A stretch of 64,000 nt of DNA from Reinekea marina (GTDB lineage: Bacteria; Pseudomonadota; Gammaproteobacteria; Pseudomonadales; Natronospirillaceae). The notes beneath the pieces are model-generated. The model saw only the letters and a program-made list of their open reading frames with translations, made no database searches and was not told the DNA's origin. Shown piece after piece: positions 5,858-29,027 of this stretch. Where the stretch lies: NCBI RefSeq assembly GCF_030409715.1, contig NZ_JAUFQI010000001.1, positions 2,344,501 to 2,408,500 on the forward strand, given 5' to 3'. Position 1 is the stretch's first letter. The number at the start of each line of letters is the position of its first letter. A program made the position numbers and the translations under genes.

Positions 5858-6070
5858 TCGCGTCTCCGCTTTGCTTCGATCACTCCTACAAAAGCTTTGA
5901 AATGGTGGAATAGTTAGCTTTGGCGGTGGGTTTCACTGCAGCGGGCATCTGAGCCATGGATGGCGAAGTTTAGCGGCGCAGGATGCGCGAACAGCGACCC
6001 GCGGAAGTGGAATCCGCCGCCAACGCAAATTCAGGCAGTGTAATTTCGACTAAAGACAAGCTCAAAATAA
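5858..6070 (+). repeat. 213-bp repeat, unit 1 of tandem array
   Basis: The head is REP-like: TCGCGTCTCCGCTTTGCTTC from 5858, then CGATCACTCCTAC. A linker follows (AAAGCTTTGAAATGGTGG), then a body of about 115 bases with inverted arms (GCTTTGGCGGTGGGTTTCA at 5918 onward, GAATCCGCCGCCAACGC near 6010-6027) around the core GCCATGGATGGCGAAGTTTA, and a tail ending at 6070. The next unit starts exactly 213 bases later. Confidence 0.9.
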
Positions 6071-6112
6071 TCGCGTCTCAGCTTTGCTTAAATCACTTAT
6101 ATGGACCCGTCC

Positions 6113-6380
6113 GTTGTTGCAAGCCACTTATTTTACATTAGATTGAGATTGCACGCTTATATTCGGCTTCTTATTTAGGACGGCCGTCGCCTTCTGTCCT
6201 GAGCCATTATGAGTTGTGCTCTTACTGTCCTGATCTCCTACGCGGCTTCTTTGAGCCAAAGCGCTCTCAAGGGTTCAGTAAGTCGATCTTATCTTTTGTG
6301 TCTTAAGGGTCTGCGCAACCTCTAGGTTAATCTGATTTATAACTTCTAACTTACCTTGCTGGTTCTTTTTCTCTTTTGAC
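6113..6380 (-). ncRNA. Candidate bridge RNA region of the IS
   Basis: The 268 non-coding bases between the transposase stop and the right-hand inverted repeat have no ORF. IS110-family recombinases are known to use an element-encoded bridge RNA; in the IS1111 group it is encoded downstream of the transposase, as here. On the minus strand the region contains GTAGGAG (plus-strand positions 6235-6241), identical to the insertion target GTAGG-AGTGATC, and two similar ATCAGGACAG / CTCAGGACAG loops 40 bases apart. The RNA's ends and fold were not computed. Confidence 0.45.
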
Positions 6381-7400
6381 TTAAGAGTGGTATACCGAAC
6401 CATTTTTCATCAGTGCCCAACTGATTCTGGCGAGCTTATTCGCGAGTGCCACGATGATGACATTGGGATGCTTGTTCCCTTCGTGCTTCATCACCCATTG
6501 CTTTAGAGCACTGTCTTTTTCCTGCCGCTGCAAGGATTTATAAGCCGACCTCGCGCCATGCACCAGCATCTTACGGATCTGTTTATTGCCTTGTTTACTA
6601 ATGCCAAGCAAGACATCTTTCCCTCCGCTGGAGTGCTGTCTGGGAACCAACCCCAGTGAAGCACTGACATGACGACCACTGGCAAACGATGCAGCCTTGC
6701 CAATGTGACTGTAGAGAAGCGTTGAGATGATTGGACCGATACCCGGTATGCTTTGAAGACGCTTACAGGTTTCATTTGAGTTGGCGATCTGCGCGATTTC
6801 TTTGGCGTATTGCTGCTCTTGCTGTTCGCGTTGCAACCACTGCTGCCTGAGGTCGGCTATCATTCGCCGACCTCGAACGCTGAGCTCATTCGTTCCATCC
6901 TCTAACACCAATAACACCTGCTCACGGATAGCTTTTGCACCCTTAGGAAGAATGACTCCATATTCAGCCAACAGACCTCGGAGCTCATTGCCTACGGCAA
7001 CACGCTCTTTCACTATACGCTCCCGAACACGATGCAACGCCTGAAGATCTTGTTGCTCAACATTTTTTACAGCAACGGTCGGCATGGTTGGTCGACTCGC
7101 TGCTTCAGCGATGCCAAGAGCATCCCTGGTGTCATTTTTGTTCACCTGAACGAAGGGTTTAACGTAACGAGGGTGTATAACTTTAACGGTGTGACCGAGC
7201 TTAGCCAACTGCCTAGCCCAGTAATGGGATCCGCTGCAAGCTTCCATAGCGACGACAGATGTTGGCTGCTTCGCAAGAAAAGGCAACACTTGAGCACGCT
7301 TGAGCTGCTTCTTTTTAATCTCATTGCCGCGATGATCTAACACAGACAATTGAAAAACAGACTTCGCCAAATCAAGACCGATAATGTTAGTATTTTGCAT
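6381..7400 (-). CDS. IS110-family transposase (DEDD recombinase)
   Basis: A 339-residue transposase from ATG 7400, which has a strong AGGAGG site seven bases upstream; the frame is open further up but lacks such a site. The N-terminal RuvC-like DEDD domain shows the first Asp in IIGLDLAKS, Glu in AMEACSGSHYW and two Asp in NKNDTRDALG. The C-terminal Tnp_20 domain has IPGIGPIISTLL and LVPRQHSSGGK, where the serine used in strand exchange is expected. It cuts and rejoins element and target under guidance from the bridge RNA. The frame is intact. Confidence 0.95.
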   Translation of the reverse strand: MQNTNIIGLDLAKSVFQLSVLDHRGNEIKKKQLKRAQVLPFLAKQPTSVVAMEACSGSHYWARQLAKLGHTVKVIHPRYVKPFVQVNKNDTRDALGIAEAASRPTMPTVAVKNVEQQDLQALHRVRERIVKERVAVGNELRGLLAEYGVILPKGAKAIREQVLLVLEDGTNELSVRGRRMIADLRQQWLQREQQEQQYAKEIAQIANSNETCKRLQSIPGIGPIISTLLYSHIGKAASFASGRHVSASLGLVPRQHSSGGKDVLLGISKQGNKQIRKMLVHGARSAYKSLQRQEKDSALKQWVMKHEGNKHPNVIIVALANKLARISWALMKNGSVYHS

Positions 7401-7669
7401 GATGGATCCTCCTGCTGGATGCCGTACCTGATTAGAGTTTTGCAACTTAATCATGGCACAAGTGGGACGGGTCCATCTCATTTCCTACAAAAGCTTTGAA
7501 ATGGTGGAATAGTTAGCTTTGGCGGTAGGTTTCAATGCAGCGGGCATCTGAGCCATGGATGGCGAAGTTTTGCGGCGCAGGATGCGCGAACAGCGACCCG
7601 CGGAAGTGGAAGCCGCCGCCAACGCGGGTTCAGGCAGTGTAATTTCGGCTTAAGACAAGTTCACAACAA

Positions 7670-7849
7670 TCGCGTCTCCGCTTTGCTTCGATCACTCCTA
7701 CAAAAGCTTTGAAATGGTGGAATAGTTAGCTTTGGCGGTAGGTTTCAATGCAGCGGGCATCTGAGCCATGGATGGCGAAGTTTAGCGGCGCAGGATGCGC
7801 GAACAGCGATCCACGGAAGTGAAACCCGCCGCCAAAGCGGGTTCAGGCA
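7670..7849 (+). repeat. 213-bp repeat, unit 3 (end of array)
   Basis: The head starts at 7670 and the body ends near 7840 with the cleanest palindromic arms in the array: GCTTTGGCGGTAGGTTTCA against TGAAACCCGCCGCCAAAGC. Similarity fades after GTTCAGGCA at about 7849, eight bases before the stop codon of the desaturase gene (minus strand), so the array sits in that gene's 3' region and could fold in its transcript. Confidence 0.88.

Positions 7850-28914: not shown

Positions 28915-29027
<113 letters not shown>

Follow-up and report, generated by a model that had tools for sequence, protein, structure and literature searches.

A predicted bridge RNA of an IS1111-type element in Reinekea marina, with guides that match the head of a REP-like repeat and the ends of the element

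The guide RNAs of IS1111 elements and the order of their guides have been published, and the mechanism has been in print since 2024 (PMC11187229). According to that report, the subterminal inverted repeats (sTIRs) of IS1111 elements carry a 7-bp left and a 3-bp right extension, circle-junction promoters occur in these families, and a natural change of target through replacement of the guides is described for ISEc11 and ISXne4 (PMC11187229). A 96-nt seekRNA of ISPa11, an IS1111 element of Pseudomonas aeruginosa, was co-purified with the transposase, and the element targets REP (PMC11187229). ISPa11 inserts between REP bases 6 and 7, and several elements of the IS110 family were described in 2006 as targeting REP (PMC1525189). 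IS621, from the IS110 group, inserts into the REP sequence ATCAGGCCTAC in E. coli (PMC11208160).

The window analyzed here is a stretch of 64,000 nucleotides of the Reinekea marina genome. Positions 6098-7483 very probably form a complete IS1111-type element of the IS110 superfamily, denoted IS-A, whose downstream tail encodes a bispecific guide RNA for a repeat head and for the element's own ends. A search of the literature by family and mechanism, the element being nameless, found no paper on an element of this genome. The borders, transposase gene and flanks of IS-A are as follows.

6098..7483, minus strand: IS-A, IS1111-type insertion sequence of 1386 bp read as complete, with borders common to four copies
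6381..7400, minus strand: DEDD transposase/recombinase of IS-A, 339 aa from the ATG at 7400 (PF01548, PF02371)
7465..7476, minus strand: left subterminal inverted repeat ATGGACCCGTCC, from the sTIR-anchored border search
6101..6112, minus strand: right subterminal inverted repeat GGACGGGTCCAT, from the same search
7484..7488, minus strand: left target flank GTAGG, from the comparison of copies
6091..6097, minus strand: right target flank AGTGATT, from the comparison of copies

The transposase was matched by PF01548 (5.7e-20) and PF02371 (9.9e-21) in the domain search, and its translated stretch has GLVPRQHSSG at residue 251, which is the G--P----SG motif of the DEDD-type transposases of IS1111. 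By sequence, its C-terminal part matches ISCro4 and IS621 chains in the PDB. The frame is also open from a start further upstream at 7481, which would however fall inside the left extension. Outside the sTIR, whose length in IS1111 elements is usually 11-13 bp, IS-A has the 7-bp left extension AAATGAG and the 3-bp right extension ATA, and there is no target duplication. The non-coding sequence comprises 283 bases downstream of the transposase gene versus 83 upstream of the ATG at 7400, which is the IS1111 arrangement. Among the best 120 of 7997 matches listed, the nearest other proteins are 65-66% identical and are found on short jgi/lgn contigs, and a relative in Marinobacterium mangrovicola (locus L021) is 63% identical. 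A search of viral contigs for relatives of IS-A found none, and a search of genome contigs found one. The genome holds four copies of IS-A (the window copy, L002, L003 and L004), all with identical borders; their transposases are 99.4-100% identical and their frames are without stops.

An earlier note on this DNA had placed a bridge RNA in the non-coding tail of the element and had proposed a covariance search as a check. The tail (6098-6380) does lie downstream of an IS110/IS1111-type transposase gene, and 6138-6292 on the minus strand was matched at 79.5 bits (E 5.9e-22) by a covariance model built from 17 relatives, from which IS-A and its nearest relative L021 were excluded. The sole other match of the model within the window has an E value of 0.7. 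The following parts of the RNA were assigned.

6138..6292, minus strand: bridge RNA (seekRNA) region of IS-A, given as the extent of the covariance-model match
6276..6282, minus strand: 5' arm of the target-loop stem, CTTACTG, in covarying helices 1-2 of the relatives
6221..6227, minus strand: 3' arm of the target-loop stem, CAGTAAG, from the covariance match and pair counts
6244..6257, minus strand: hairpin GGCT...AGCC between both target guides, helix 4, with 100% of cells paired in 17 relatives
6225..6234, minus strand: ATCAGGACAG, not a guide but a conserved linker that runs into the 3' arm of the target stem; 14 of 19 elements read ATNAGG here and all 19 have the AG
6165..6205, minus strand: donor hairpin, GGCT (6205-6202) with AGCC (6168-6165), helix 5 in the relatives

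The consensus fold of the relatives' tails comprises a target stem, two guide stretches separated by a hairpin, and a donor part that contains a hairpin of its own. In the 17 relatives, 93% of 440 cells are paired, versus 29-48% after sliding by 1-3 columns, and double-change cells number 91 in the training alignment versus 28.4 after shuffling. This covariation supports the bridge RNA fold, and IS-A has the conserved fold of a bridge RNA or seekRNA. Across the genome, the model matched the four copies of IS-A, five copies of a second element (IS-B, described below) and one weak extra site at 30.2 bits. That weak match (L071:2418-2545, minus strand) retains the donor part, has a shortened target part and has no transposase frame of at least 70 aa alongside; it is likely an IS1111 remnant in an Rhs-like region. 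No Rfam family was matched by the tail of IS-A at the gathering score, and the only gathering-score match in the window is a bacterial small SRP RNA (RF00169) at 28923-29019 on the minus strand.

Four guides were assigned in the two loops (left and right target guides, LTG and RTG; left and right donor guides, LDG and RDG). A vertical bar marks the insertion point.

6235..6241, minus strand: LTG GTAGGAG, with the letters of the target top strand GTAGG|AG; it would pair with the bottom strand
6260..6266, minus strand: RTG GAGCGCT, complement of the target top strand AGCGCTC
6209..6213, minus strand: RDG CTCAT, complementary to ATGAG within the left end AAATGAG
6156..6162, minus strand: LDG ATATAAG, the right-end ATATA and the core AG

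The target specified by the LTG and RTG of IS-A is GTAGG|AGCGCTC. The RTG stands 5' of the hairpin and the LTG follows it, which is the published IS1111 order, and the two guides match both strands of the target. The second loop (CTCAT, ATATAAG) matches the element's own ends, as in a bridge RNA. The earlier note had rightly recognized GTAGGAG at 6241-6235 as the seven bases that span the insertion point, and these bases are the LTG. It had also likened the ATCA that follows to GATC in the target. These letters are not a guide; they belong to the linker, which keeps its form in elements with different targets and whose AGG pairs with CCU in the consensus fold; the likeness to GATC is best taken as a coincidence. 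For CTCAT at 6213-6209, the complementarity to ATGAG of the left end stands and makes it the donor guide, but the gap from GTAGGAG is 21 bases (28 from start to start) and not about 40. The sequences ATCAGGACAG and CTCAGGACAG, once put forward as target and donor loops, fall in the linker with the beginning of the stem's 3' arm and in the donor hairpin region, respectively. The RTG and the LDG had been missed.

The anatomy, the fold and the correspondence of the guides with target and donor are all read from the letters of the element and its relatives. In the proposed mechanism, the target loop (RTG GAGCGCT, hairpin, LTG GTAGGAG) would specify the head of the REP-like repeat, GTAGG|AGCGCTC, and the donor loop (RDG CTCAT, hairpin, LDG ATATAAG) would specify the left and right ends of IS-A. 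If IS-A behaves like IS621, ISEc11 and ISPa11, its DEDD recombinase would bind this RNA and excise the element as a circle, which would insert into repeat heads in one orientation. We infer that the RNA is transcribed and bound by the recombinase, that circles form and that IS-A is presently active.

The copies of IS-A were aligned, a comparison that the earlier note had also suggested, and the fit of the guides was counted at each site. L004 (GTAGG|AGCGCTC) fits at 14 of 14 positions, L002 (GTAAG|AGCGCTC) and L003 (GTAGG|AGCGATC) each at 13, and the window copy (GTAGG|AGTGATT) at 11. The fit is poorest in the window copy, with 7/7 for the LTG and 4/7 for the RTG. Read from the letters, its RTG would form standard pairs at four positions and rG:dT wobbles at two, with a mismatch at the remaining one; the four junction-adjacent positions would all pair with one wobble allowed. 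For IS621, RTG pairing is described as starting from 4 bp, and target position 4 accepts an rG:dT pair (PMC11208160). In the tail of IS-A, shuffled targets were as good as the window copy's in 104 of 2000 cases and as good as those of the other three copies in 0 of 2000 each. When the targets of the other elements were swapped in and scanned freely, three of 18 reached the score of the window copy. Taken alone, the match of the window copy is weak; the strong evidence is comparative. A search for the RTG from the window copy's own flank, AATCACT, gave a best match of only 5/7, and the guide became clear from L002-L004 alone.

The poor RTG pairing at the window site might indicate that the RNA gene is real but that IS-A is immobile and the guide match a relic. 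This explanation is unlikely given four near-identical, stop-free copies that occupy sites with different letters.

All four copies of IS-A lie in one REP-like head, the GTAGGAG heads being part of a REP-like repeat. The earlier note's idea of an element programmed for a repeat with many copies holds. Intact sites within one mismatch of the 12 specified bases, GTAGGAGCGCTC, number 38 in the genome, two of them exact; the reversed control gave 10. In the genome of L021, the REP pattern gave one match versus five for the reversed control, but the pattern had one N too many for L021's own site and the result is uninformative. A repeat of about 213 bases is present on both sides of IS-A (window 5885-6097 and 7484-7849), in tandem on the right side. 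This larger repeat has 55 matches in its own genome, and three of 27 other genomes have matches to it (16, 1 and 1). An inverted pair of GTAGGAG heads (L073:1230-1320) forms a long, REPIN-like hairpin of -47.9 kcal/mol, and the lone head next to the window copy gives a weak fold of -8.6 kcal/mol, both with RNA parameters. The label REP fits in shape, by the GTAG head and the hairpin of the inverted pair, but no RAYT-type Y1 transposase (PF01797) was found in this one genome by a search that was positive in five of 14 control genomes, including E. coli.

With so many copies, the repeats could recombine, and a single insertion of IS-A might have been spread in this way without guided insertion. 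The junction letters differ among the copies of IS-A, the flanks differ beyond the repeat's own letters, and the flank letters of L002 are identical to those in the repeats next to it (GTAAGAGCGCTC, at 76933 and 77181), all of which make spread by recombination very improbable. With four sites occupied and a further 38 free ones at no more than one mismatch from the specified 12 bases, this one genome is a natural experiment on the mismatch tolerance of the guides. If the guide reading is true, insertion is expected into GTAGGAGCGCTC and less into GTAGGAGTGATT.

The second IS1111 element of the genome, IS-B, has five copies and a protein 46% identical to that of IS-A.

IS-B copies L012-L016: genome C1, near 1225500, 2755700, 2538000, 987800 and 239000, respectively

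The fold is common to IS-A and IS-B; IS-B was matched at 116.4 bits, but it belongs to the training set of the model. The guides of IS-B (LTG ATGGATG, RTG ACGCGCA) are unlike those of IS-A. In four of the five copies, the site is ATGGA|TGCGCG or ATGGA|TGCACG, in the inner palindrome of the target repeat of IS-A and not in its head; L016 lies outside the repeat and has a poor RTG match. Shuffled targets were as good in 2, 25, 2, 2 and 1052 of 2000 cases for the five copies, the last value being that of L016. The larger repeat contains the target sites of both elements. The guides of IS-A fit the repeat head and those of IS-B its inner palindrome, and therefore two IS1111 elements appear to be programmed for two sites of one repeat.

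Relatives of IS-A were obtained from 57 genomes searched (12 matched) and a further 369 (8 matched), the own genome being counted in each, and from L021. The border search gave anchored sTIRs in 31 of 38 loci, which collapse to 19 distinct elements including IS-A; L027, L031, L032, L033, L038, L055 and L057 were dropped for lack of anchored sTIRs. Second fetches of IS-A and IS-B copies (L009-L011, L022, L034, L040, L043-L048) were left out. The transposases of the other 18 elements are 36-63% identical to that of IS-A.

In the main test, the whole non-coding regions of the 19 elements were aligned without their targets and the guides were read at the guide columns of IS-A. For the LTGs, matches to the element's own target add up to 116 of 133 positions, whereas permutations gave a mean of 53.7 and a maximum of 79. 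For the RTGs the sum is 101 of 133 (mean 64.5, maximum 85), taken as the best of four registers, granted equally to own and swapped targets. The RDGs match their own left ends at 82 of 95 positions (mean 69.2, maximum 80); the margin over the best permutation is small, and all five bases are matched in just 10 of 19 elements. For each of these three guides, 0 of 20,000 permutations were as good. The LDG equals the last five right-end bases in all 19 elements, three of which have bases other than ATATA there. The first copy represents each element in the fixed-column tests, and the poorly fitting window copy therefore stood for IS-A.

An earlier fixed-column test, on a first alignment, gave LTG and RTG sums identical to those of the main test. 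Its stretches had been cut around the best-matching LTG, with L054 cut where its relatives suggest; the cut stretches also fed the alignment behind a covariance model (alignment A2, model R1). Because whole non-coding regions were aligned, the bias from LTG-centred cutting is removed in the main test. In the earlier test, the own target came out alone at the top in 11 of 19 elements, one other was as good in seven, and four others were as good in L035. For IS-A, one other target scored 13 against 11 for its own; by our reckoning this is the target of L021, which has the identical GTAGGAG. In the free-scan test, the own target was ahead of all 18 others in nine of 19 elements, with clear failures in L025 and L039, where 16 and 17, respectively, of the 18 other targets did equally well. 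A poor guide fit in one or the other of these two tests was found for L025, L035, L039 and L056. Shuffling covered IS-A, IS-B and L021, and shuffled targets were as good for L021 in 29 of 2000 cases.

That the GTAGGAG match is due to chance, with the protein or the hairpin shape of the repeat picking the target, is hardly credible: a 7-base match within a 283-base tail is not very rare, the shuffling result for the window copy is weak, and both IS1111 elements of the genome sit in repeats with palindromic parts, but this explanation is contradicted by the fixed-column guides, which track the targets of 19 elements, and by IS-B, whose different guide fits its different site in the same genome. 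The comparison of the 19 elements gives a reading rule: RTG of 7 nt, 2-3 nt, hairpin, 2 nt, LTG of 7 nt and linker, and then RDG, hairpin and LDG. This rule lets the targets of related IS1111 elements be read from sequence.

The two core letters were compared among the same elements. They are identical in the LTG and LDG in 18 of 19 elements, L021 being the exception, and the two core letters of the target equal those of the LTG in 14. The first core base of the LDG equals the first base of the left end in all 19. At the second core base, the donor left end differs from the target in 11 elements; in nine of these the donor letter is A, the target letter is G, and both guides carry G. A donor A and a target G with a guide G in both loops suggest a wobble reading of the donor core, in which a single RNA letter would form G:C with the target but G:T with the donor and so distinguish the two, and the point of exchange would lie just behind the first core base. 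In this genome, two distant IS1111 elements carry guides for separate sites of one repeat family, which suggests that REP-like repeats may serve as shared landing pads. The two ideas together, a wobble core in this IS1111 group and shared landing pads for two distant elements, are put forward tentatively and with some doubt. A pairing of the RDG with the two donor core bases was considered and rejected, as the two letters after the RDG do not track the core across elements.

A candidate promoter element was found at the right end of IS-A.

6117..6122, minus strand: TTGCAA, candidate -35 box of a promoter that would be completed across the circle junction; weak alone

When the ends were joined, a sigma-70-like pair whose -35 box lies 24-26 bases ahead of the circle junction scored best in 19 of 19 elements, the scan covering only 70 bases around each junction. 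For the candidate of IS-A alone, 27 of 300 shuffles were as good, and the range across the elements is 0 to 129.

IS-A is a new but ordinary member of the RNA-guided IS1111 elements, to which it adds a clean, fully annotated guide RNA. Its sTIR has the 7-bp left extension described for ISEc11 and ISXne4, and its top-strand guide precedes the bottom-strand guide as it does in those elements (PMC11187229). Like ISPa11, IS-A has a downstream non-coding region and a REP target; it differs as another element in another host, the comparison being one of published descriptions (PMC11187229). IS-A shares with IS621 a bispecific bridge RNA with target and donor loops (PMC11208160), and the recombinases match by sequence. 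In contrast to IS-A, the IS110 group to which IS621 belongs has its RNA upstream of the gene and the guides in the reversed order (PMC11187229, PMC11208160).
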